DNA of 64,000 nucleotides, taken from positions 22,643,686 through 22,707,685 of the forward strand of contig OU015527.1 of assembly GCA_907165065.1 (NCBI GenBank), read 5' to 3'. The DNA is from Caprimulgus europaeus (taxonomy: Eukaryota > Chordata > Aves > Caprimulgiformes > Caprimulgidae). A program made the translations under genes and the position numbers. The notes below the pieces were generated by a model. It did not search any database. It saw only the letters and a list, made by a program, of their open reading frames with translations, and was not told where the DNA came from. This document shows, piece after piece, positions 586-63,882 of the stretch (the stretch's first letter is position 1; each line of letters starts with the position of its first letter).

Positions 586-2212
586 AGACACTGTCGGGGG
601 CCGGACTGTAGTTCGGAAAAAAATGAACGAATTCCTATGCACACTGCACATATTTTATTTGTAGTAGTGCACAAAAACCAGGAAAAAAGAATGCAATATT
701 TTAAAGGAAGAACAATTGTAATCAACAGAAACAAATAATATTTCAATGTGAACTATGGGCCTGCTTTTGGCTAATGAGATGGTCAGTGTGAAGTTCCATA
801 TTTGTCACTGCCAGTCGTAGCAAGTGATGCAAGTGTTCATCAGTCAGTCTGGGTCTGATTGGAGATTTCAGATGTTTCATTCGGGAAAAAGTCTGCTCAC
901 AGACATAGGTGCTGCCAAAGACGGTTGCAATTTTGAGTGCATGGTTCCTGAGATTATGATATGTCTCTGAGGGGAGAGATGCACAGAAATAAACTGAATA
1001 GTTTACCCCAGTCCAGCTCCAAAACATTCACAGTTTGGCAAACTTTCTTGCAGATATCCTCTCCTGTAGTTGTTCCTTTGATGCTTTTCAGTGCAGCAAG
1101 CTCCTCTGTGACTTCGAAAGAATCATTTGTCCCACGAATGAAAATTAGAAGTTGTGCAGAATCACGAACATCATTGCTTTCCTCGAGTGCCAATGAGAAA
1201 TAGCAAAGTTTTTTTGAGGAGTTTTGCAACTGCAGATTCAAATTTTCCCCCATTTCTTCAATCCTTCGTGTAATTGTAGGTCCTGAAAGACTCACTGTGC
1301 TAAATAAATCCTCCTTCTCTGGACACATCTCTCTGGCAGCAGAAAGAGGCATTCTTTAACTAATTCTCCCTCTATGAACGCTCTGCCAGTGTGCGCTATG
1401 AGCTTGGCAACTTGATAGCTTGCTCGAAGTGATGATATATTGAGCTGCTTTTGCTTCATAAAAGTATTCTGCAGAGTTGTCAATCCATGTTTCAGTCTTA
1501 ATATTTTATCTTTTCTCACTTGTCCAACCAAAGAATCATATTTATCTTTATGTTGAGTTTCGTAGTGTCAACGCAAATTGTATTCCTTGAACACAGACAC
1601 TGAATTCTGGCACATCAGACAAGCAGCTCTTTCTTTGTACTCCGTGAAAGAATAATCACAAGTCCACTTTTCTTGGAAGACCCTGCACTCAGAGTCAATT
1701 TTTCTTCTTTTTGACACGATGGTGGGCGCGCTTCCCACTGGTGCTGGCTTGCTTGTCCTGCCTGGAGGCTGGAGGGAGGGAGGGAGAGACGGGGGAGTCG
1801 CCCACCTCGCTGATGCCGCCGCCCCCTTCCTCAGCCCGGCCACGCAGTCCGGAAAGGGCGGCCAGAAGGGACTGAAGGAACTTTGCCGCGCCGGGGCTCT
1901 GGCGATTCGCCCGAGCTGGCTGGACCTCGCAGTCCAGAGGCTGCCGACTGAGCCTGCCCGGCAGAGGAGATGCCCGCGCCTCTCACCCGCCGCAGGGGGG
2001 CCGGTCGAGGACGAGGCGCTGGTTCCAGCCCAGTCCCGGCGGGTGCTTGGGGGCTGCAGAGGCCGGCGTGTAGATTAAGTGTCAGGAAGCCACCTGCAGC
2101 TGCTTGGTTTCCCCCCCAGCCCCCGGCGGGGAGTTCTGTAAATACCGGCGGGCCGGATCGAGGACCCTGGGGGGCCGTATCCAGCCCGCGGGCCGTAGTT
2201 TGAGGACCCCTG
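586..2212 (-). mobile_element. hAT-type DNA transposon, non-autonomous copy 1 (one end truncated)
   Basis: On the minus strand this reads from an intact terminal inverted repeat (CAGGGGTCCTCAAACT, ending at 2212) through a CpG-rich leader of about 480 bp into transposase relics, and stops at 586. It matches copy 2 at 9355-11029 along its whole length but lacks the last ~44 bp, including the second terminal repeat. The sequence runs instead into the minisatellite. A target duplication cannot be tested because one end is missing. The terminal repeat, BED finger and C-terminal hAT dimerisation region place it in the hAT superfamily, probably a Charlie-like lineage. Confidence 0.85.
743..1735 (-). 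pseudogene. hAT transposase relic in copy 1
   Basis: The pieces appear in order on the minus strand. First comes a basic stretch (KRRKID) and half of a BED zinc finger (CLMC, then KEYNLR), broken by a stop at 1568-1570. The finger's histidine half (HYETQH) follows. A central segment at 954-1352 contains a TTGEDI-type hAT motif. Last is the C-terminal dimerisation region at 743-985 (ATVFGST, TFSRMKHLK, HLHHLLRLA). The middle of the transposase, where catalytic acidic residues would lie, is missing, and the last part is in a different frame. The copy cannot encode an active enzyme. Autonomous hAT transposases are usually 600 residues or more. Confidence 0.8.
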
Positions 2213-9290: not shown

Positions 9291-9354
9291 TCAGGAAACT
9301 GCATGCAAACAAGAACTTTGTGACTGATAAGGATGTAAACCTGAGGGTCTAGGA

Positions 9355-11029
9355 CAGGGATCCTCAAACTACGGCCCGCGGACTGGATACGGCCCCCCAG
9401 GGTCCTCAATCCCGCTCGCCGGTATTTACAGAACTCCCCGCCCCGCCGGGGGCTGGGGGGAAACCAAGCAGCCGCAGGTGACTTCCTGCCACTTAATCCA
9501 GCGCCGGCCTCTGCAGCCCCCAAGCACCCGCCGGGACTGGGCTGGAACCAGCGCCTCATCCTCGACCGGCCCCCCTGCGGCGGGCGAGAGGCGCGGGCAT
9601 CTCCTCTGCCGGGCAGGCTCAGCCGGCAGCCTCTGGACTGCCAGGTCCAGCCAACTCGAGCGAATCGCCAGAGCCCCGGCGCGGCAAAGTTCCTTCAGTC
9701 CCTTCTGGCCACCCTTTCCGGACTGCGTGGCCGGGCTGAGGAGGGGGGCGGCGGCATCAGCGAGGTGGGCAACTCCCCCGTCTCTCCCTCCCTCCCTCCA
9801 GCTCCCAGGCAGGACAAGCGAGCCAGCACCAGTGGGAAGCGCGCCCACCATCGTGTCAAAAAGAAGAAAAATTGACTCTGAGTGCAGGGTCTTCCAAGAA
9901 AAGTGGACTTGTGATTATTCTTTCACGGAGTACAAAGAAAGAGCTGCTTGTCTGATGTGCCAGAATTCAGTGTCTGTGTTCAAGGAATACAATTTGCGTT
10001 GACACTACGAAACTCAACATAAAGATAAATATGATTCTTTGGTTGGACAAGTGAGAAAAGATAAAATATTAAGACTGAAACATGGATTGACAACTCTGCA
10101 GAATACTTTTATGAAGCAAAAGCAGCTCAATATATCATCACTTCGAGCAAGCTATCAAGTTGCCAAGCTCATAGCGCACTGGCAGAGCGTTCATAGAGGG
10201 AGAATTAGTTAAAGAATGCCTCTTTCTGCTGCCAGAGAGATGTGTCCAGAGAAGGTGGATTTATTTAGTACAGTGAGTCTTTCAGGACCTACAATTACAC
10301 GAAGGATTGAAGAAATGGGGGAAAATTTGAATCTGCAGTTGCAAAACTCCTCAAAAAAACTTTGCTATTTCTCATTGGCACTCGAGGAAAGCAATGATGT
10401 TCGTGATTCTGCACAACTTCTAATTTTCATTCGTGGGACAAATGATTCTTTCGAAGTCACAGGGGAGTTTGCTGCACTGAAAAGCATCAAAGGAACAACT
10501 ACAGGAGAGGATATCTATGAGAAGGTTTGCCAAACTATGAATGATTTGGAGCTGGACTGGGGTAAACTATTCAGTTTATTTCTGTGCATCTCTCCCCTCA
10601 GAGACATATCACAATCTCAGGAACCATGCACTCAAAATTGCAACCGTCTTTGGCAGCACCTGTGTCTGTCAGCAGACTTTTTCCCGAATGAAACATCTGA
10701 AATATCCAGTCAGGTCCAGACCAACTGATGAACACTTGCACCACTTGCTACGACTGGCAGTGACAAATATGGAACCTAACATTGACCATCTCATTAGCCA
10801 AAAGCAGGCCCATAGTTCACATTGAAATATTATTTGTTTCTGTTGATTACAATTGTTCTTCCTTTAAAATATTGCATTCTTTTTTCCTGGTTTTTGTGCA
10901 CTACTACAAATAAAATATGTGCAGTGTGCATAGGAATTCATTCATTTTTTTCCAAACTATAGTCTGGCCCCCGACAGTGTCTCAGGGACAGTGAACTGGC
11001 CCCCTGTTTAAAAAGTTTGAGGACCCCTG
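9355..11029 (+). mobile_element. hAT-type DNA transposon, non-autonomous copy 2 (both ends present)
   Basis: The element is bounded by 16-bp terminal inverted repeats: CAGGGATCCTCAAACT at 9355-9370 and the reverse complement of CAGGGGTCCTCAAACT at 11014-11029, with one mismatch. The flanking 8-mers are GTCTAGGA (9347-9354) and GCTTAGTA (11030-11037). Five of eight positions match, which suggests a decayed 8-bp hAT target duplication. It comprises a CpG-rich 5' leader (about 9360-9850), transposase relics, then a short AT-rich 3' tail. At 1675 bp it is too short for an autonomous element, and it shares its internal deletion junction with copy 1. Confidence 0.9.
9853..10825 (+). pseudogene. hAT transposase relic in copy 2
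   Basis: The order is the same as in copy 1: KRRKID basic stretch and BED finger first half (about 9853-9999), stop TGA at 10000-10002, the histidine half of the finger, then a central segment (10216-10604). After an internal deletion near 10600, the C-terminal hAT dimerisation region follows in another frame (about 10604-10825). Over the 132-residue central segment the two copies differ at 7 residues. Copy 2 also has a 2-bp deletion near 10178 relative to copy 1. It cannot make an active transposase. Confidence 0.8.
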
Positions 11030-15065: not shown

Positions 15066-15412
15066 GAAACTAAGGAGCAGCTCTGAAGAGAAGGGCTTGG
15101 GAGTGGTGGCAGATAAGAAGCTCAACATGAGCCGGCAATGTGACCTTGCAGCCCAGAAGGCCAATAACCGTATCCTGGGCTGCATCAGGAGAAGCGTGGC
15201 CAGCAGGTCGAGGGAGGTGATTCTCCCCCTCTACTCCGCTCTCGTAAGGCCCCATCTCCTCCCTGGAAGTGTTTAAGGCCAGGTTGGATGGGGCTTTGAG
15301 CAACCTGGTCTCGTGGAAGGTGTCCCTGCTCATGGCAGGGGGGTTGGAACCGGATGATCTTTAAGGTCCCTTCCAACTCTAACCATTCTATGATTCTATG
15401 ATACTATATTGA
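15066..15412 (+). mobile_element. CR1 LINE 3' end with internal deletion
   Basis: The first part (15066-15253) matches the CR1 ORF2 tail seen at 46215-46390. At GGCCCC (15248-15253) the sequence jumps directly to the element's 3' UTR segment and proceeds to the terminal ATTCTATGATTCTATGAT repeats. About 350 bp present in the copies at 46.1 and 49.1 kb are missing. The copy is otherwise close to those two. Confidence 0.93.
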
Positions 15413-44337: not shown

Positions 44338-45988
44338 TCACTTACAAAAAATAGCTTCATTCAGGCCACAATAGTCCACTGTCAGTCTCCACTCCCCATT
44401 CGACTTCCGCACAGGCCATATGGGGCTGTTACAGGGAGAGCGAGTCCTGCTGATCACTCCTTGGTTCTCCAGCTGACGAATCAGTTCATGGGTGGGAATT
44501 ACGGAGTCTCGGTTGGTGCGATATTGCCACCAGTGCACTGGTGTGGTAGCGATGGGAACCGGCTGGTCTTTGGCACTTAGCAGTCCCACAACAGAAGGGT
44601 CCTCGAGAGATAAGGCAGAGCAGTCAGCTGTTTGATTTCCTCTGTTTCCCAGGCAGCTATGCCAAAAGCCCACTGGTACTCTCCTGGGTCCTTGAAATAC
44701 CCTCTCCTGAGGTAACCTATGCCAAGGATGCACGGAGCACCTGGGCCAGTCACAATGGGGTGCTTTTGCCATTTCCTCCCAGTCAGGCTCATTTCAGCCT
44801 CCAGTACGTTCAGCTGTTGAGACCTACCCTATCCCTCCAGAAATACGGATGGATTCTGTCCCTTTAAAGTCTGATGGCATCAGGGTGCATTGGGCACCAG
44901 TGTCCACTAAAGCTTTATACTCTTGCGGGTCAAATGTGCCAAGACAATAAATCCACATAGTCCAGTAAATTCAGTTACCTCTTTCCTCCACCTGGCTGGA
45001 GGCAGGGCCCCTCTAATTCAGGGTATCATATTTGTCATCAATAAATGGGTTAGTGTGATATCTGTGGGTCTCCTCGTGCTTGGTCACTTCTTGTGAATAG
45101 GAATCAAAAGTTCATCCTGTAGGACTGGGTGTAAATTTGACTCTTCTGTTCTGTCTGAGGAACGAGTTTCTGGAATCGGAGCAATTCTCCTAAAAGGATC
45201 TCTAGTTGTATTTTACTTTCCTTGCAACTCACATACTCATTTTTCTAGGATCAGGGTAGGGTTTCCATCCAATTTTCTCACGTCTTCTCCATCGTCACAC
45301 AAGTAAAACCACAATGTGTCTCTTGCTGTATTTTGTCTCTTTTGCACAGGAGAACGCTCACCTTTAGTGGCTGAGACACTGGTTTTTATAGGTAGAGAGC
45401 ACAACTGGCACACTTTTTCAGTCAGTTTCTCCACAGCCAAGACAAGGGAGGGTGACATACTTTCTTTCCATTGCTGGAGTCAAAGAGCCAATTAATCTGT
45501 TGTTGGTTCCTTTTTGTCTTTCCATTCCAGTACTGCCAAATAGCTGGCATATAAGGTGGGTGCGCTCCATATGAGCTTCTGCCACATGGGTACTGTGCAT
45601 CAGACTTCATCTGGATCTGCAGGTAACTGCACATTGTCTGGATCATCATAAATCAGTTTTCACACAGCCATTTCCCTCAAAAGCTGGATACCTCTATCCA
45701 TGGTAGTCCATTTGCCTACTCCTGGTTGCAACACAATATCATCCTTGATGGGATACCTTTTCCTCACGCCTGACAGGAGACACCTCCAGAGGCTGAGGGT
45801 TTGTTGTTTATTTCCAATTGCTTTATCAATTCTGCTTTTTCTGGCAAGGGAATCCAGCTGCTTGGCTTCCCTGCCCTCCAGTTCCAAGCTACCGGCTTCA
45901 TTATCCCAGCATCAGAGCAACCAAGTAGTAATTTGCTTGCCTACATGATGACGGGAATCTTTTTGTGTATCTCACAGCTCACTCGGAG
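44338..45988 (-). mobile_element. Degraded ERVL-like provirus fragment (gag, protease, RT start)
   Basis: On the minus strand the order is retroviral. Gag-like frames lie at about 45237-45887. An aspartic protease core with the active-site DTGA is encoded at about 44890-44907, and the N-terminal RT fingers (WPVRK, then WRLTVDY) in the frame 44338-44772. Stops and frameshifts interrupt each gene. RT stops short of its catalytic domain, and no LTR is attached at either side. The overall character suggests the class III (ERVL) group common in birds. The piece ends at the U1/CR1 chimera on the right. Confidence 0.8.
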
Positions 45989-46084
45989 CTACTTACCTGG
46001 CAAGGGAGACACCATGATCAGGCAGGTGGTTTTCCTAGGGCAAGGTTCATCTCCTGCACTCCAGGTCTGCTGACCCTTGTGATT
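45989..46084 (+). pseudogene. U1 snRNA 5' fragment (nt ~1 to ~98), retrocopied
   Basis: The segment reads ACTTACCTGGCA, then ACCATGATCA, GGTGGTTTTCC, AGGGC, TGCACTCC and TGCTGACC in the order and spacing of vertebrate U1 snRNA stem-loops I and II. It starts at or within two bases of U1 nucleotide 1 and stops at about nucleotide 98, inside stem-loop III. Differences are mostly C-to-T or G-to-A changes, as expected of a decayed copy. No U1 promoter elements (PSE or 3' box) are evident and the 3' half is absent, so it is not a functional snRNA gene. It continues without a gap into CR1. Confidence 0.92.
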
Positions 46085-46915
46085 AGGGACCTTGACAGGT
46101 TTGAAAGGTGGGCCTGTGCTAACCTCATGAAGTTCAACGAGGCCAAATACAAGGTCCTGCACCTGGGTCAGGGCAACCCCAAGCACAAATACAGGCTGGG
46201 CAATGAGTGGCTTGAGGCCAGCTCTGAGGAGAAGGACTTGGGAGTGGTGGTGGATGAGAAGCTGAACATGAGCTGGCAATGTGCACTTGCAGCCCAGAAG
46301 GCCAATAACCGTATCCTGGGCTGCATCAAGAGAAGCGTGGCCAGCAGGTCGAGGGAGGTGATTCTCCCCCTCTACTCCGCTCTCATAAGGCCCCACCTGG
46401 AGTACTGTGTCCAGTTCTGGAGCCCCCAACACAAGAGAGACATGGACCTGTTAGAATGACTCCAGAGGAGGCCACAAGGATGATCCAAGGGCTGGAGCAC
46501 CTCTGCTGTGAGGAGAGACTGAGAGAGTTGGGGCTGTTCAGCCTGGAGAAGAGAAGGCTCCGGGGAGATCTTATAGCTGCCTTCCTGTACCTGAAGGGAG
46601 GCAACAGGAAAGCTGGGGAGGGACTTTTTATAAGGGCAGTTAATGACAGAACAAGGGGAAATGGCTTTGAATTGGAAGAGGGGAGGTTTAGATGAGATAT
46701 TAGGAAGAAATTCTTCACTGTGAGGGTGGTCAGACACTGGAACAGGTTGCCCAAGGAAGTTGTGGATGCCCCCTCCCTGGAAGTGTTCAAGGCCAGGTTG
46801 GATGAGGCTTTGAGCAACCTGGTCTAGTGGAAGGTGTCCCTGCTCATGGCAGGGGGGTTGGAACTGGATGATCTTTAAGGTCCCTTCCAGCCCATTCTAT
46901 GGTTCTAAGATACTA
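46085..46915 (+). mobile_element. CR1 LINE 3' part of the chimera
   Basis: It begins AGGGACCTTGACAGG and encodes [20 protein letters not shown], then [19 protein letters not shown] and [18 protein letters not shown] in the plus frame to 46459. The 3' UTR follows, ending near GGTTCTAAGATACT at about 46915. It is close in sequence to the copies at 15.1 and 49.1 kb. Confidence 0.95.
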
Positions 46916-49057
46916 TGTTTTTTCCCCATGGAACAACCTGTTAATAAAAAGTAAGACTTCTAATTAATTACAACAATATAGAACACTGTGCCACGCGAGT
47001 ACTCAAAATAACATATAAACCCACTGGATGATTACCAGCCCCAAGTCAACTTACTCAGCTAGGATTTGAGTGACAACTAAAATTAATTTTCCTGGTTTTT
47101 GCTAAATAGAAAACACCAAGCTTAATTTTTTTAAAAAAGAGAGAGAGAGAGAGAGAGAGAGATAATAAAAAGAGCACTTCAACCAAAAAATGTGAAGGCT
47201 TTAAGAGTTACAAAATATCACAGCGGCCATAGAAAGAAAGCCTCCATATATTATTAGAGGGACACTGGAAGTTAGTTACTGAGGTCAGCCATTTGGGTAG
47301 ATAGAATGCAGAAGAGCATTAAAACTGAGGAAACACAAAGCATGAATTGAGACTTAGAAGTAGAGCAGATCAGGAAAAATTCCTATGCAGCATTATTTAA
47401 ATTGGAATCTGCCAATTAGTCAAAATAGTTTGTTTTTGACAATGCTTCAATTCTTTTGGTCTCACACCACAGCATTTCCCTGCTCCTTGGTGGACTGCCA
47501 GCCAGGTTCTCCAGGAGTCTGGACCACAACACTCCCAAGCTATGCCTCTGAGGCCACTTGCAGGACTACCCTCAGGCTCCCACCTATTTACAAGCTCAGC
47601 AGTAACCACTTCCTCCATAAAAGCCCAACCTCCTCCTTCTCAAATCATCCAGAACCCTGATTAGGGAGCAAATGGACAGAGTAACTACCATCTAAGTATT
47701 CCCTTATTGTCACCCCTGTGTCTGCATGCCTCAGGACTAAAAGCAAATGTAACAGAAAAGAGAAAAAAACCCCATGTACGTAAAATTCCAAAATGTGGTA
47801 ATACAAACATACATAAAGTAAAAGGGAAACTCTGATGAGACATCTGTTAGAAACACTATCTGACCAGTTAAAGGGTGAGAGCATCCGGGGACAGAAGGGT
47901 AGGTCAAAGGAAAAGTAAAGTTTCTGACTGATTTTGAAGAAGGACAAGGTAGTTTTGTAATGAGGGAGAATTTTTGCATGGAGGGTAACGCACTTTTAAC
48001 TCCTACCTGTAGCTGCCTTTGCCCCTTACAAAAAAGTATCCCATGCCAATGAAGAAGGTCCACCAAAACATTCCAACAGCAGAAGTATCTTTTACCTTTG
48101 TGTAAAAAGAAAACTAAAACTAAGAACTTCTGTGCTCACACCCTAAAGCTAGACTGACAGCCCCCTGAGTTGTTTGGACAGAGTCCCTTTCACTATAGCA
48201 AAGATATAGAACATTAGAAAAGGCTTTTCCCTGACACAGAACAGTATCAGAAATACCTCTTAAGTATCGTGACCCAGACTGGTGTTCTTCACACTCATTA
48301 ACACTTCCTGAATGCTTCAGGTATTAGAGTAACGTTTTCTAATACAAGACATAGAATTTGCCGTTGGAAGAAATGGAGGCTGCATTGGCAAGGAGCAATA
48401 ACACCATATGAAAATTTGATCTCACTTTAAATTCTTTTAAATACAATAGGACACACAGCACTCCATCTGCAGCACTGCTATACCACGGCATTACTAAGTC
48501 ACTGCACAGCAGCTGGAGTGTACAAGCTTGCAGTAGGTTGCTGGAAATTCCATGGCTTGATAAACTTGTCAGTGGACCTAGCATGCAAAGGAGGGCCGTG
48601 GAAACTGGAAACATTAACTGCTACATGCAAATCAAATAACCATGTATGTGACATGCTGGTGGGCAGGAAAACTTCAGGAAGCAGCCTTTGACAGAGCTCA
48701 GTCATGCCTCTGGCACTGCACTTCTGGCCAGCTGGAGCTCCAGTTTAGCCAAAAGGCAATTAATATTGCTGAAGTGTTGGTGCAATATTTTGGTAGCACG
48801 TTGTTAAGAGAGAGAGCTCAAAGAAAATACCAGAATAATAGAATTATAAACCATTTCAGTTGGCCTGACTTCAAAATCACAGCACAGAGTCTACTGTAGG
48901 ATGTGAGCAGTTTGATATAAACCATCAAAGCTGTTATAAAACATGAATACTCAGTTTCTAAAAATAATAAAATGCTTTAGATTACTTCTAACAGAAACTC
49001 CAACCAACTCTTCACCAACTTTCCCCAATACTTGATTACATAAACCAAACAATATCA
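46916..49057. other. Non-coding region with (GA)n microsatellite
   Basis: A (GA)n tract of about 12 units lies at 47139-47162. Otherwise AT-rich, with no recognised exon or repeat family. Frames of up to 109 codons have no domain. Confidence 0.5.
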
Positions 49058-49830
49058 AGAAGGCCAAATGCAAGGTCCTACATCTGGGTCAGGGCAACTC
49101 CAAGCACAAGTACAGGTTGGGCAATGAGTGACATGAGACCAGCTCCAAAGAGAAGGACTTGGGAGTGGAGGTGGATGAGAAGCTCAACATGAGCCGGCAA
49201 TGTGCGCTTGCAGCCCAGAAGGCCAATAACCGTGTCCTGGGCTGTATCAAGAGAAGCGTGGCCAGCGGGTCGAGGGAGGTGATTCTCCCTCTCTACTCTG
49301 CTTTTGTAAGGCCCCACCTGGAGTACTGTGTCCAGTTCTGGAGCCCCCAACACAAGAGAGACATGGACCTGTTAGAATGACTCCAGAGGAGGCCACGAGG
49401 ATGATCCGAGGGCTGGAGCACCTCTGCTGTGAGGACAGGCTGAGAGAGTTGGGGCTGTTCAGCCTGGAGAAGAGAAGGCTCCGGGGAGATCTTACAGCGG
49501 CCTTCCAGTACCAAGAAAGCTGGGGAGGGACATTTCATAAGGGCAGTTAATGACAGAACAAGGGGAAATGGCTTTAAGCTGAAAGAGGGGAGTTTTAGAT
49601 TAGATATTAGGAAGAAATTCTTCACTGTGAGGGTGGTGAGACTCTGGAACAGGTTGCCCAAGGAAGTTGTGGATGCCCCCTCCCTGGAAGTGTTTAAGTC
49701 CAGGTTGGATGAGGCTTTGAGCAACCTGGTCTAGTGGAAGGTGTCCCTGCTCATGGCAGGAGGGTTGGAGCTAGATGATCTTTAAGGTCCCTTCCAACTC
49801 TAACCATTCTATGATTCTATGATTCTAAGT
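49058..49830 (+). mobile_element. CR1 LINE 3' end
   Basis: It starts within AAGGCCAAATGCAAGG of ORF2 and covers [19 protein letters not shown] and [13 protein letters not shown] (frame 49159-49380). It ends at ATTCTATGATTCTATGATTC near 49830. It lacks about 20 bp near 49512 relative to the copy at 46 kb. It belongs to the same subfamily as 46085-46915. Confidence 0.95.
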
Positions 49831-51744
49831 TAGAGATATATCACAAAGAATGTAAAGTCTAACAACCACACAAACACAAAAAAATCCTTGTTTTCCTTAT
49901 GTCCCCAGAACAACTTTCAGAGTCAGAGTGGCTGCAATGACCAGTTACCAAGCACAGGGCCTCCAGCAAATATTTTTGTTGGCAGCAATGCACAAAACAG
50001 ACAGGTCTGAAGTGACCAGTGGATTTCCACAGCACATGAAAGGTGTTCACCTTATTCAGGAACACCACCTTCACTAACCAAGGTGAATTTGTTATGACCT
50101 CTACAACTGAAGACCTTGTAGCTGTTGCAAGGTCTGATGTGGTTAATTTTTCTGCAGAACTCTACATTTCTTTAGGTACTGCTCTGACAGTGTCCCAGGC
50201 TAACTCTACAAGAATGTCCAGAGTTCAATTCCTTATGAAAGCCCCCGTCAACAGTCTGCCCACACCACCTCCAGATAGCAAAATGCTTCACACCCCATGT
50301 CCCCAGTCATTTTGGCTGATAAAACCTAAATATCTTATGTATGGTCTTTCCCAAAAGCTATGTGGAGAAGTGACAGTAATTAAGAACTGTTCCAACAGAT
50401 CTTTTTGTCTTGTACATTTCCCTAGAATTGTATGATTTTCTTTTTCTAGCAGCTCTTCTTTCTTACTGAAGGGAGAAAGTTCTTTCAAGATAAAGTGCTA
50501 CATCAGCACTGAATTAAAGAACAAATGAACAGATATTCCTCAATGATTAGCAACTTATACTGCTGACACATCTGAATATGTGCCTTGGTCAGACCACCTC
50601 ATCTATTTGCCACTTCAGAAGGAGAATATATTTTTTCACTTTACAGATTAATCAGAAATACTTTATTTTTCAAATAATTTCTTTTTTTTTTTTTCTTTCC
50701 TGAAAGCTACTTTTTTCCACACATAAAACTGAAAAGCCTTAAAAACTCATAATCTCAACCTTTCAAAACTTTAGACTCAGATGCCACCTAGTTCTTGACA
50801 ACCCAGAACAGGAAAACAAGGATATCACCTTGCCTTCAAAAAGACTGTCATAACAAAATAAGATGCTTCTGCAATAAAGCCAGCTGTTTTTTGAGCCAGC
50901 TAAAAAGCTTAGAAGGTTTCACTCTCATTGTAGGAAATCTTGCATCGCTTCCTTTTTCTCCATGGAGCAGGAGTTTTTCCAGAGGGTTAAAAGTTAGGCT
51001 ACATACTTGCCTATGGACAAAACTTTAGAGGGATTATGCTTTTCAGCAACAGAAAAAAATATTAACAGGATGACAAACCCAGCCATTAAATGAAAGCATA
51101 CCCCTCACTTTCATTCATAAAATTCATCTGGTATGTCAGAAGAGACAGTCAGAAAACAGTATTTCTGGTCTGTGAAAAGCTGTCAATTTTTATTTAAATT
51201 CCAAATTAGGACAGCAGTGACATGCTGAAAAAATTTAGAAGTTTAAATTTTTAACCAAATATATTACCAAGGTACAAATGCTCTAACAGAAATCTGTATT
51301 TGCTTCAGTTTTCCCTCTCCTTTAAAGAGCTCATCATGGGAAGATGCCTTTGACATCTGCCATTACAATCAGGCATGCAGTCAGAGGTAGCAAAAGTTAT
51401 TCTTCTGCAAGAGGGCTTCCAACTGCAAAGCAGAAGGTGGGATGCTCTGCCTAAACTGATATTCATCTACAGCCATCAACTGAAATTTAACAATATTTGA
51501 TTTTTACTTTCTGAAGCTAGTTTAAATAAATTCCTGGGTTTTTTCTTCAAAATACCTTAAAAATCACCTCCAAGTATTAGAAGAGAAAGCTCTTCTGGAA
51601 GAAACACAACATTTTCAGAGGTAGTAACTTCACATGTCATGCTTCAGAGGAAAATGTTGACACTCCTTTTAATGTGGAAGAAATGATCCATTATGATTGC
51701 TAATTACTATGGAACAAAGTCTTTGCTATGAAAAAGACTGAAGA
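49831..51744. other. Non-coding region
   Basis: A 130-codon plus frame at 50043-50435 has no recognisable domain. A T-run lies at 50681-50695. Nothing else was recognised. Confidence 0.4.
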
Positions 51745-58829: not shown

Positions 58830-59716
58830 ATATGGCTATAACAAAAACTAAACCACAGCACAGAAGTTTCTTGACCATTCTTGGAAGCTCACCCTTTAAG
58901 CATGCAGTTGTTCAGTACCACACATACTGCGTTTACTCTTCAATTTTCTTTCTTTTTCAATCCTAAATGTGCCAGAAATCTTTGCTACTATGTCCATTTC
59001 TCTCATTGCAGTGCTTTGTTGTTGTTGTGGTTTTTTTTGTTTTGTTTTGTTTTTTTGTTTCCTTTTACTCATCCTTTTTCCAGGCTGGATATTACCGACC
59101 ACCTAAGGCATACTGCCAAATGATACAAGATTGATAACATGAAGTTAAACATCCAGCCACTAACGTAGGCCAATAAGCTAATGATAGTCTACATCTCACT
59201 GAGGACTTATTTTTATTAGAACGTAGTAATGCTACCCAGGCAGGCCACTTCAGCTTTCCCATCTATCAGGAGACTCAAATATTCACTCATTTCTTAAGTT
59301 GGACAGCAAGCAGATCATAACTCCAGTTAAAGCTTATTTGGGAAACATGAAGGACGAGGCTGCAACATCGATGAAGTACAGCAGCTCCTCAGGGTGAATC
59401 CTTTTGCCTTTTCTCTTCCCACCAGCTCAACTGCAAATGCAAGATATGAATTCTGCCTCCAGTATTTCCACTACTGCAAAAGTCCACAAGGGCTCAGCCC
59501 ATGCCTCTTTTGTGACACTGAATCAAAAAGAAGTTAATATATTCACAAGTATATTGTCAGAACATGGTTTACTTTGCCTCTGAAAAACAAAGTTCTCCAG
59601 GCACGGAGACTGCCCAGTGTGCCACTACCAAATTCAGTTACATTCAGAATACTTTTCCTCAATAGCATTGTTTAAACCTTATTCAAGAAATTTACACAGC
59701 TCTCAGGATAATTACT
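58830..59716. other. Non-coding spacer with T-rich simple sequence
   Basis: A (TTG)/(TTTTG) simple-sequence block lies at 59017-59060. Nothing else was recognised. Confidence 0.45.
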
Positions 59717-60845
59717 TGTATTGGGTTTGCGTGGCAAGGTTTTGGTAGTGGGGGCAGACATAGGGGTGGTTTCTGTGAGAGAAGCTGCCAGAAGCTTCCC
59801 CCATGACCAACACAGCCAATGTCAGCTGGCTCCAAGACAGACGTGTCGCTGGCCAAGGCCGAGCCCATCAGTAACGCCCCTGTGACAACATAATTAAGAA
59901 AAAAAAAGGGAAGAGAGGAAAAAAAAAAGCAGCACACTTTGCAGCTGGAGAGAGGAGTGAGAAGATGTAAGAGAAAACAACTCTGCAGACACCAAGGTCA
60001 GTGAAGAAGGAGGGGGGGAGGTGCTCCAGCGCCGGAGCAGAGATTCCCCTGCAGCCTGTGGTGAAGACCAGGGTGGAGCAGGCTGTCCCCCTGCAGCCCA
60101 TGGAGGTCCATGGTGGAGCAGATGACCACCTGTTGGCCATGGAGGACCCCACGCCGGAGCAGGTGGATGCCTGAAGGAGGCTGTGATCCCTCGGGAAGCC
60201 CGCGCTGGAGCAGGTTCCTGTCAGGACCTGTAGCCCGTGGAGAGAGGAGCCCACGCAGGAGCAGGTTTGCTGGCAGGACTTGTGACCCCGTGGGGGACTC
60301 GCGCTGGAGCAGTCCCTTCCTGAAGGACTGCACCCCATGGAATGGACCCAGACTGGAGCAGCTCGTGAAGAGCTGTCAGTCATGGGAAGGACTCATGTTG
60401 GAGAAGTTCGTAACTGTCTCCCGTGAGAGGGACCCCATGCTGGTGTGGGGGAAGGAGTCCTCCCCCTGAGGAGGAAGGAGCGGCAGAAACACCGTGTGAT
60501 GAACTGACCCCAACCCCATTCCCTGTCCCCCTGTGCCGCTGGGGGAGGAGGTGGAAATCGGGAGAGAAGTTAAGCTCGGTAAGAAAGGTGGGGGGGAGGT
60601 GTTTTAAGATTTGGTTTTATTTCTCATTCTCCTTTGATCTGATTGGTAATAAAGTAAATTTGTTTTTCTCTTCCAGGTTGAGTCTGTTTTGCCCGTGCCA
60701 GTAACTGGTGAGTGATCTTTCTCTGTCCTTATTTCCATTCGTGAGCCTTTAGTTATATTTTTCTCCCCCTGCCCAGTTGAGGAGGGGGAGTGATAGAGTG
60801 AGCTTTGGTGGGCATCTGGCATCTAGCCAGGGCCAACCCACCACA
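59717..60845 (+). mobile_element. Solo ERV LTR, long avian type, TSD TTACT
   Basis: The element starts TGTATTGGGTTTGCG and ends AACCCACCACA. TTACT lies on both sides (59712-59716 and 60846-60850), a perfect 5-bp target duplication proving a complete solo LTR. AATAAA is at 60648-60653. A central tandem array carries the coding-like frame 60110-60469, which is LTR sequence rather than a gene. Confidence 0.93.
60075..60460 (+). repeat. Tandem array within the LTR (TGGAGCAG units)
   Basis: Units of about 45-60 bp, each containing a form of GACCC...CGCTGGAGCAG, recur about seven times from 60075 to 60460. The same array, more eroded, is in the LTR at 62839-63882 (about 63160-63475). Open frames across it give repeated Arg-Trp-Ser-like peptides. 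Confidence 0.75.
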
Positions 60846-60850
60846 TTACT

Positions 60851-62838
60851 GTGTGGAAAGGAGACTTTTGTTCTCTGTTTAAAAGACAAAAAAAAGCAGA
60901 CTTGAGACACACTTTTTGGTATTGACAATTTCAAGGAAGCAGCAATTTGATTTAATTAGGGGCCAGAACCCAAACTTCCCAAATAGGTGCATAAAAACAC
61001 AAGCTAAAATTGAAATAAAGCAAACAGCTGGAAGCACTCCTTATAGCAAAACACTAGATTTCTGCAGGCATTTTAAAATCTTCCAATCTCCATCCACCTC
61101 TAGTGAAATTACAGCTTTTTGCACTCTGGCTTGACAGCAAGATTATCTACTAGGATCTCTCTAAGAATGACATGGAGAAGAGGCAATCTCAGCAGTGTAA
61201 CGTGGAGTGGACACATTCCCACAAGGTGCCTGATACAACTTCCAGCTCAGAAATTACCAGGACTTCCTGAAGCTTGGGAAATATCGTAGGAAGAATTACC
61301 TTGTTTGTGCCTCACTGAAATTCTATTGTTAAGCATCTCCTGAGGGCCACAAGTAGCAACCAGGAACAATCTAGACTGACCTAGGACTAACCTGTATCTG
61401 ACAATATAAGAACAATTTGTTCCAAAACAACAATTTGTTCCACAAACATCCCTCCAGATTTTTGAGTCCGGTTGTAGATAGGTTCCAGGTTTTGGAAACC
61501 ACTTCAGTACTTTTGTGTGGCCTCAGTAAAGTTGCAAGAGAGAACAGGATAACACCAGCGGGATCAACAGCAGCCTCTCTTAGCATAGAAAACTGATCAA
61601 TAGACACTGCGTGGCTTACTGGGCACAGCAGCTTTCCACAGCCCTAGCAGTCCTGTTACAGACTGTGAAGTGCCTGATCAAGGCAAAAGAAACCTCCTGG
61701 CATCAAGTCAGATAATATCTATATGACACTTTCTCCCTCCTCTGAAAGCAGCCTGCTTGATTACCAGTTTTTCTTTTCAAGCTATCCATTTGCAAGCACT
61801 TGGCAAAATGCAGCCTCTCCAAGCACAACAGCAATGCAAGTAAAAAGATTATGCCCTATGAGGTAATAAGGTGTGGCATGTTATTTCCTGGTTCAGAACT
61901 CAGGTACCAAGCCTATAATTTTTCTTGAACAAGATCAACAGTCACACGTTGAATTCTAGCAGGATGAAAGGGCTGAGGAAAGTCTGAACATTCTTTAGAT
62001 TGCCTAACACTTAGCACATGACAGATCCTTCCGTGCTCAGGTACCTGGAAACTTAAACTAGAGGAAGGAACAGCAGATAAGATTAGGACTGGAGAAGTTA
62101 AAAGAGAAGAAAGCAATAAACAAAATAATATGTCCACAGTCTGGAAATGTCATCTTTGTTTCTCTTCCTCCTCAAGACACACCCCACCGGGTTGGGGCAG
62201 TGAATGCAGGACCGTATGGTCCCACTGTGGGTCATACCACCCCAAGAAGATTCTCGCAAAAATGCACACAAAAATCTAGGTACTGCATTTACAAAAAAAA
62301 TAGACAAGGTGCAGCAATTTTGTCAGATGACAGAGCAGCAAGTCACTTCTAAGTATATGTTACTGCAAATCGCAGATCAGTCTGAACACTACTGGTTACA
62401 TTCCATTTATAAAGCTGGAGTATTTGTGCACCCTTTTTAGTCCTGCAGTAGCTTTCTCTCTGCTGTTTGGAAATAAACCAACAGCAATAACACAAAAACA
62501 ACACAGCTCTATGGAAGTCACCTTGTTAAAGTTAAAAATTTGAAATCTCCCAAAAGCTAAGCAAAAGACAAGATACATCAATCTCTCTCTACATCAAAAG
62601 GTTCTAGTTTAGCATTTCACTTTGAATTTTATAATTTTATTTTCTTTACAGTTCCAGACTTTTCCCCCCATGGCAAACTTACAAGTATATACAGTAGCCC
62701 CTTGGCGCTGTGACAAAATTACAAGTTCAAATTCCTTGTGTTAAGTCAAAAGAGAGATAAGTACATAAAGATAGGCAACATTTGTCTGTATTGGTTATCT
62801 GTCTGAGTAATTCCAGATCTCTTTATTCCAGGCCATCT
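60851..62838. other. Non-coding spacer between two LTRs
   Basis: Host-like AT-rich sequence. No gag, protease, RT or primer-binding site was recognised, and the left LTR has its own target duplication. The segment is therefore not the interior of a provirus. Confidence 0.6.
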
Positions 62839-63882
62839 TGCATTGGATTTATGTGGCAAGGTTTTGGTAGTTGGGGGCTACAGCGGTGGCTTCTGTGAGA
62901 AGATGCTAGCAGCTTCCCCCATGACTGACAGCCAGTGCCACCAGCTCCAGGACAGACCCATCACTAGCCAAGGCTGAGCCAATCAGTGGCAGTGGTAGCA
63001 CCTTTGTGATAACATATTTAACATGTTGCACAACAGCAGCCAAAAGAGAGGGGTGAGAAATACAACTCTGCAGCCACCAAGGTCAGTGAAGTGGAGGTGC
63101 TACAGGTGTCAGAGATGCCCCAGCAGCCTGTTGTGAAGATCATGGTGAGGCAGGCTGTCCCTCTGCAGCCCACAGAGGTTAATGGTGAAGCAGATGTTCA
63201 CCTGCAGACCAGGGAGGATCCCACACTGGAGAAGGCTCCTGGCACCACCTGTGGCCCCACGGACAGGAGCCTACACTGGTGTAGGTATTCTGGCAGGACC
63301 TGTAGTCCTGCAGGGGACCTACACTGGAGCAGTCCATTCCTGAAGGACTGCACCCTGTGGAAAGGTCCCATGCTGGAGCAGTTCATGAAGAACTGCAGCC
63401 CGTAGGAGGACTCATGTTGGATAACTTCATGGAGGACTGTTTCCCATGGGAGGGACCCTATGCTGGAGCAGGGGAAGAGTGTGAGTTCTCTCCCTGAGGA
63501 GGAAAGAGCAGCACAGACAATGTGTGATGAACTGAGCACAACTCTCCTTCCCCACGCGCCTGTTCTGCTGGGGCAAAGGAGGTAGAGAATTTGGCAGTGA
63601 AGTTGAGCCTGGGAAGAAGGGAAGGGTAGGGAGAAGGTGTTTTAAGAATTGGGTTTATTTTTCATTATCCTACTCTGATTTGATTGGTAACGAACTAATT
63701 TTTTTTTTCCCCCAAGTCAAATCTGTTTTGTCCATGATAGTAATTGCTGAGAGATCTCCCTGTCCTTATCTCAACTCAGGAGCCTTTCCTTGTCTTTTTT
63801 TGTCTCCCCTGTCCAGTTGAGGAGGAGAGTGATAGAGCAGCTTGGTGGGCACTGGATGTCCAACCAAAGCTAACTGACCACA
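62839..63882 (+). mobile_element. ERV LTR, same family as 59717-60845, older
   Basis: It starts TGCATTGGATTTATGTGGC and ends AACTGACCACA. The layout matches the LTR at 59717, including the tandem TGGAGCAG array, but with more substitutions, and the AATAAA has been lost (GGTAACGAAC near 63687). Flanks CATCT and ACATG do not match. Its greater decay marks it as the older insertion of the two. Confidence 0.88.

Follow-up and report, generated by a model that had tools for sequence, protein, structure and literature searches.

CR1 is the main LINE of birds, and at the locus described here, from the nightjar Caprimulgus europaeus, it is joined to the 5' part of the U1 small nuclear RNA (snRNA). 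The closest described systems are chimeras of small RNAs with other LINEs. Specifically, chimeras of U6 with L1, L2, and RTE are explained by template switching in the accessible text of PMC4476161, which also states that a U1/L1 chimera formed by template switching was not seen and that many L2 chimeras have short or no duplications. The accessible text of PMC13174262 places U1-U6 among the partners of L1, with U3 and 5S also reported in mammals, and counts 253 chimeras, 70.9% of them with U6. For birds, two prior cases were found in the available parts of the sources: from turkey, a 5'-truncated U6 adjacent to a CR1-like element, a single copy with an assembly gap on which the authors were undecided (PMC4476161), and a switch of a CR1-tailed SINE to tRNA, proposed for the passerine PittSINE (PMC5729268). 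Moreover, template jumping by the R2 reverse transcriptase needs non-templated addition according to the accessible text of PMC8857657, and snRNA-derived SINEs are mentioned in the accessible parts of PMC8010984 and PMC7245038. A described U1/CR1 chimera was not found in the openly accessible literature, a search outside which most subscription papers lie. Lastly, Kojima, in a 2015 study cited in PMC7245038, is said to have described the SINEU, snRNA-headed SINE families with U1 or U2 heads that are reportedly moved by Tx1-type LINEs in crocodilians.

The join was studied in a window of 64,000 nucleotides (the whole stretch of DNA analysed, on contig C37, with the join near 22.69 Mb), whose positions are counted from its first letter. 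A copy of U1 nt 1-96, identified by its Rfam match and by alignment to the U1 of the same genome, occupies 45989..46084 on the plus strand and passes at 46084..46085, without a linker and without bases common to both parts, into a 5'-truncated CR1 on the same strand (46085..46917). The latter consists of the end of ORF2, with a stop at 46457-46459, and the 3' UTR, and its 3' end at 46917 lies in three imperfect terminal octamers of the ATTCTATG type (46894..46917, plus strand), as the octamer is defined in the accessible text of PMC2612034, which also gives TTCT as preferred at the insertion site. ORF2 end, 3' UTR, and octamers together mark the element as a CR1 LINE, and the pair has the build of a chimera, an snRNA 5' and a LINE 3' part directly joined in the same orientation. 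The exact border comes from a similar CR1 at locus L009, in which CATCCAG precedes AGGGACC where U1 reads GATTTCCCC; the CR1 sequence before AGGGACC thus sets the end of U1 at 46084 (nt 96) and the start of CR1 at 46085, with no linker between them.

An earlier note on this DNA had described an ungapped, co-oriented passage from U1 into a 5'-truncated CR1 with its 3' end, and this description is borne out, its coordinates being good to a few bases: the 5' start of U1 stands, while its end is moved from nt ~98 to nt 96 at 46084 by the comparison with the L009 CR1, and the orientation of CR1 stands, while its end is moved from 46915 two bases on to 46917. The alignment to the Rfam U1 model (RF00003) that it had proposed keeps the U1 identity, with 48.6 bits and an E value of 3.1e-10 on 45989-46129 (5,001 bases searched); the score lies under the gathering score of 69.5 because the U1 part is the first 96 nt only, and with 96/164 nt present the copy is not a full-length functional U1 gene. 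No family reached its gathering score in the Rfam search of the window. When compared with an intact U1 gene from this genome, the copy aligns without gaps over nt 1-96 with 10/96 differences, one of them at nt 1, and its left border is U1 nt 1 or 2, so that the U1 5' end is present. The U1 and CR1 identities at the join are not chance likenesses. A second CR1, at 49055-49831 in the window, is 90.8% identical to the joined one over 791 aligned positions. Another of the same kind, at 15078-15410, carries an internal deletion by which the blocks matching CR1 135-314 and 688-835 adjoin.

The genome searched comprises 1,177,730,439 bases in 121 contigs. The U1 model search gave at least 28 places (42 of 21,274 first-look candidates scored), and a nucleotide search using U1 nt 1-105 as the query gave 28 places (28/28 candidates scored). 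Ten of the listed places form a cluster of apparently intact genes on C2, the eight inspected among them showing no difference from one another over 164 nt, and the dispersed copies listed number 25 with the window included, 18 from the model search and 7 more from the DNA search. These 25 copies were aligned to the U1 of the same genome, and up to 1 kb to either side of each was compared, on both strands, with eight CR1 references. A co-oriented CR1 lies 0 to ~36 nt behind a U1 copy with its 5' end in six of the 25, namely the window, L011, L012, L014, L024, and L046; the search that the earlier note had suggested for U1 upstream of co-oriented CR1, run on this bird's own genome, thus yields five loci besides the window. 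The CR1 starts 0 nt after the aligned end of U1 in the window, 6 in L014, 6 in L024, 11 in L012, and 32 in L011, and the foreign linkers judged by eye measure 0, 11, 6, ~16, and ~36 nt, respectively. At L046, U1 runs to nt 84 and is followed by ~27 nt of T-rich sequence and then by the end of a CR1 3' UTR; this tail was missed by the tabulated BLAST comparison of the 25 copies, was spotted by eye, and was added after a control-scored test in which it reached 45 versus 27 for the highest control (3,088 stretches; best of six references), with P <=0.003 for five of the six references and 0.08 for one. L020, in which U1 runs to nt 105 and a CR1-like stretch follows, was left uncounted because 2% of controls score equally (best of three CR1 references), and at L021, where U1 runs to nt 72, no CR1 was found with the eight references.

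Conversely, in the three other side and orientation classes no CR1 lies 40 nt or less from any of the 25 copies; the nearest cases are at 104 nt on the 5' side and the same strand (E 0.004), at 112 nt on the 5' side and the opposite strand (a clear CR1, at L012), and at 123 nt on the 3' side and the opposite strand (E 0.001). With the CR1 density taken from 22 pieces on 132,717 bases (17 loci and the window), a count that includes the chimeras themselves, about 0.08 joins are expected by chance at the 24 other loci over 41 positions each, while five were seen (P 2.8e-8); with only the four found by BLAST at these 24 loci, P is 1.7e-6. Five co-oriented, nearly flush joins elsewhere and their one-sidedness argue for a coupled process and favour template jumping, and such jumping by the CR1 reverse transcriptase is the best account of the U1-CR1 joins across the genome. 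The earlier note had proposed a jump from CR1 RNA to U1 RNA for the window; at the genome level, the proposal is upheld by the five further joins among the 24 other dispersed copies, whereas for the window itself a single event is favoured rather than demonstrated.

Compared with the snRNA/LINE-1 chimeras of mammals, as the accessible texts describe them, the joins likewise have the small RNA 5' of a 5'-truncated LINE with its 3' end, in the same orientation; unlike those chimeras, which mostly carry U6, they involve CR1, U1 is entered internally, and no duplication flanking the whole unit was found. The U6-L2 and U6-RTE chimeras of platypus and lizard are similar in that a LINE other than L1 switches and that duplications are short or absent, but they pair U6 with other LINE clades, as opposed to U1 with CR1 (PMC4476161, accessible text). 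The turkey case has, as here, an snRNA beside a CR1-like element in a bird, although in the available text it is a single truncated U6 copy, and for PittSINE the available text proposes that a bird CR1 reverse transcriptase switched to a small RNA, yet this was a tRNA and the product a multiplied family. The join in the window is one of the six found in the genome and is best interpreted as template jumping by CR1, an event of a known type with a new LINE partner and an internal entry into U1. With six such joins in one genome, CR1 would be added to L1, L2, and RTE as a LINE that switches templates, and its jump sites, linkers, and target structures could be counted; the joins would also show a way in which new small-RNA heads, the first step of a SINE, arise in birds.

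The break points differ among the joins. U1 ends at nt 72 in L024, 84 in L046, 91 in L012 and L014, 96 in the window, and 146 in L011, the CR1 start positions vary as well, and pairwise differences among the CR1 parts of L011, L012, L014, and L024 amount to 7.8-19.1%. At the other end, five of the six U1 copies extend to nt 1, 2, or 3, the first six nt of L011 being imperfect; the match is imperfect in the first 2-6 nt of U1 in L011, L024, and L046. The differing break points point to separate events and not to copies of one composite retroposon. The earlier note had foreseen a new composite retroposon should the same junction occur elsewhere, and that idea is not supported: no junction is common to two of the six loci, as it would be in a SINE family. 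A U1-CR1 unit multiplying as a SINE-like family, already disfavoured, would account for the order and orientation common to the six copies and for the end of U1 at nt 91, followed by CAATTA, in both L012 and L014, but six loci with no junction in common and different CR1 starts make it very improbable. The SINEU families have in common with the joins a retroposon head from U1 or U2; SINEU, however, are amplified families, while here separate events with CR1 tails are seen.

In the proposed mechanism, the CR1 reverse transcriptase would begin target-primed synthesis at a nick, on the 3' end of CR1 RNA, would quit this RNA after ~830 nt in the case of the window, and would then jump into U1 RNA internally, at nt 96, and copy it to the U1 5' end. 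The cDNA would be closed against the left target, which in the window is a fragment of an old retrovirus, and some target DNA would be lost. We infer the CR1 enzyme as the agent and the loss of target DNA as part of the process, and a single event of this kind in the window, a CR1 template jump to U1 RNA, has a probability of roughly 0.6. The recurrence of joins favours one event in the window, while a difference in age between its two parts favours two.

What speaks most strongly against a single event in the window is this age gap. Nine of 95 sites of its U1 differ from the U1 of the same genome when nt 1 is set aside. Its CR1 has 12/833 private sites, differs at 37/832 from the majority of the other copies compared and at 26/769 from three other copies in the window, and thus diverges from its relatives by 1.4-4.4%, depending on the comparison. 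In one-sided Fisher tests, U1 at 9/95 versus CR1 gives 9e-5 for 12/833, 0.010 for 26/769, and 0.038 for 37/832; outside CpG sites, U1 at 6/87 versus CR1 at 21/749 gives 0.052, the 87 U1 sites being counted on human U1 (own-genome U1 would give 89). On 96 bases and a few CR1 copies, the U1 part of the window looks older than its CR1 part. Among the other joins, the differences from own-genome U1 amount to 2/91 (2.2%) in L012, 8/91 (8.8%) in L014, 4/72 (5.6%) in L024, 17/146 in L011, and 11/83 in L046. The CR1 branches from three-way distances, of which there is none for L046, are 1.7% in L012, 6.1% in L024, and 6.7% in L011, with 10-15% as an upper bound in L014. The two divergences roughly agree in L012, L024, and, with the CR1 upper bound, L014, while in L011 U1 (17/146) is more changed than CR1 (6.7%) and appears to be the older part, less clearly than in the window. 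A stronger age gap, obtained with human U1 (17/96 differences), was discarded since the U1 genes of this genome carry seven of these differences, leaving 10/96.

The more diverged U1 of the window would be expected if an older U1 pseudogene had been severed or truncated around nt 96-101 and had received a younger CR1, next to or within it, while the part that followed was lost. The right flank (46918..46960), which begins with TTTTTTCCCCATGG... and is non-retroviral, fits such a history in weakly resembling U1 from nt 95 onward: against human U1, P is 0.006 from nt 95 and 0.027 from nt 97, uncorrected for the choice of start. The direct-repeat search of the flanks found no target-site duplication around the U1-CR1 pair, which counts against a single event, and inner repeats at L012 and L014 (see below) suggest that one site sometimes receives separate insertions. 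Two events in the window nevertheless require that a CR1 came to lie co-oriented by chance and that the 3' half of U1 was lost, this half being absent above chance behind CR1, and a coupled process gains in likelihood from the five joins elsewhere in the genome; two events are a doubtful explanation, if the foremost rival of the template jump. A CR1 lying amid a complete U1 pseudogene was a separate candidate and was rejected, the U1 3' half behind CR1 scoring at chance level with 42% of controls scoring as high (query human U1). As to the missing duplication, the short or absent duplications of the L2 chimeras in the accessible text of PMC4476161 indicate that it is not decisive for CR1, and no outer target-site duplication was found at the other five joined loci either.

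The left flank is an endogenous retrovirus gag-pol fragment (44355..45988, minus strand) that abuts the U1 5' end. A search with 45600-45988 found at least 39 other copies of this retrovirus (40 of 772 candidates scored), of which, among the 39 listed, 37 are on C36 and 2 on C8; C36 (22.5 Mb) may be the W chromosome. The listed matches stop at 45982-45988, which places the border between retrovirus and insert at U1 nt 1, and the fragment differs from the other listed copies by 10-13% over the compared stretch. The continuation of the retrovirus expected behind the window CR1, judged by one copy read onward (L054 on C36), was not found, so that either target DNA was lost or the fragment had been broken earlier. 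At L050/L054 (C36, ~1.868 Mb), U1 to ~nt 53 lies inside gag of the same retrovirus family without CR1; in L050, it is 98% identical over nt 9-53, replaces ~130 bases of gag, and lies in the same orientation and at most ~135 bases from the matching place of the retrovirus. The U1 piece of the window might accordingly have been acquired while the retrovirus was reverse-transcribed or its gag region repaired, with CR1 inserting beside it later, and the 10-13% divergence of the fragment is nearer the age of U1 than that of CR1. This origin is improbable, however, since the 39 other listed copies lack U1 at the border seen in the window, within the matched stretch (adjoining sequence was read in L054 only), and the joins elsewhere showed no tie to this retrovirus. 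Partial U1 copies also lie beside apparent retrovirus LTR ends at L045, L049, and L052, an impression gained from their flanks.

Two of the joins carry repeats of the target inside the unit. Between U1 and CR1, L014 has a repeat of eight bases from the right flank (P 0.005). L012 has a longer and blurred one at the corresponding place (P 0.0005), which is weaker than its P since it partly coincides with the sequence of CR1 itself and its A/T run differs; neither inner nor outer repeats are present in the window, L024, L011, or L046. One reading of L012 and L014 is that the target overhang was copied up to the nick before the jump to U1, while two insertions at one nick site are the plainer reading, and the inner repeats make both loci weaker cases of template switching. 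More speculatively, U1 could be a favoured last template of the CR1 reverse transcriptase in this bird, entered internally (nt 72-96 in five of the six joins) just as target-primed synthesis finishes. In some insertions the target overhang would be copied to the nick first, so that U1 would directly abut the nick and lie beyond the CR1 duplication, an arrangement that L014 and L012 appear to show. Such a preference is an unlikely proposal on present evidence, and if it held, a switch to a spliceosomal RNA would be a frequent part of closing a LINE insertion.

Word searches with the junction, U1, and CR1 gave no match in viral_contigs, nor did one with U1 in genome_contigs, neither of which is a bird collection. 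Elsewhere in the window, 954-2074 (minus strand) and 9331-10728 (plus strand) hold near-identical inverted sets of reading frames with a protein-like stretch, ..IVSKRRKIDSECRVFQEKW.., that looks transposon-derived to judge by the translations. A repeat of 1.1 kb is present at 59715-60819 and 62837-63855, its copies being 69% identical, and the former matches part of L054 (C36) at ~90% identity. Lastly, the intact U1 genes L001-L008 (C2, ~124.41-125.02 Mb) differ from human U1 at seven positions in nt 1-96, four of which lie in the loops that bind U1-70K (GATCAGGCAGG) and U1A (CCTGCAC for ATTGCAC). The altered loops were rejected as a sign of decay, as they are normal for the U1 of this genome, and if the difference is real and general, both U1 protein sites would be altered in this bird.
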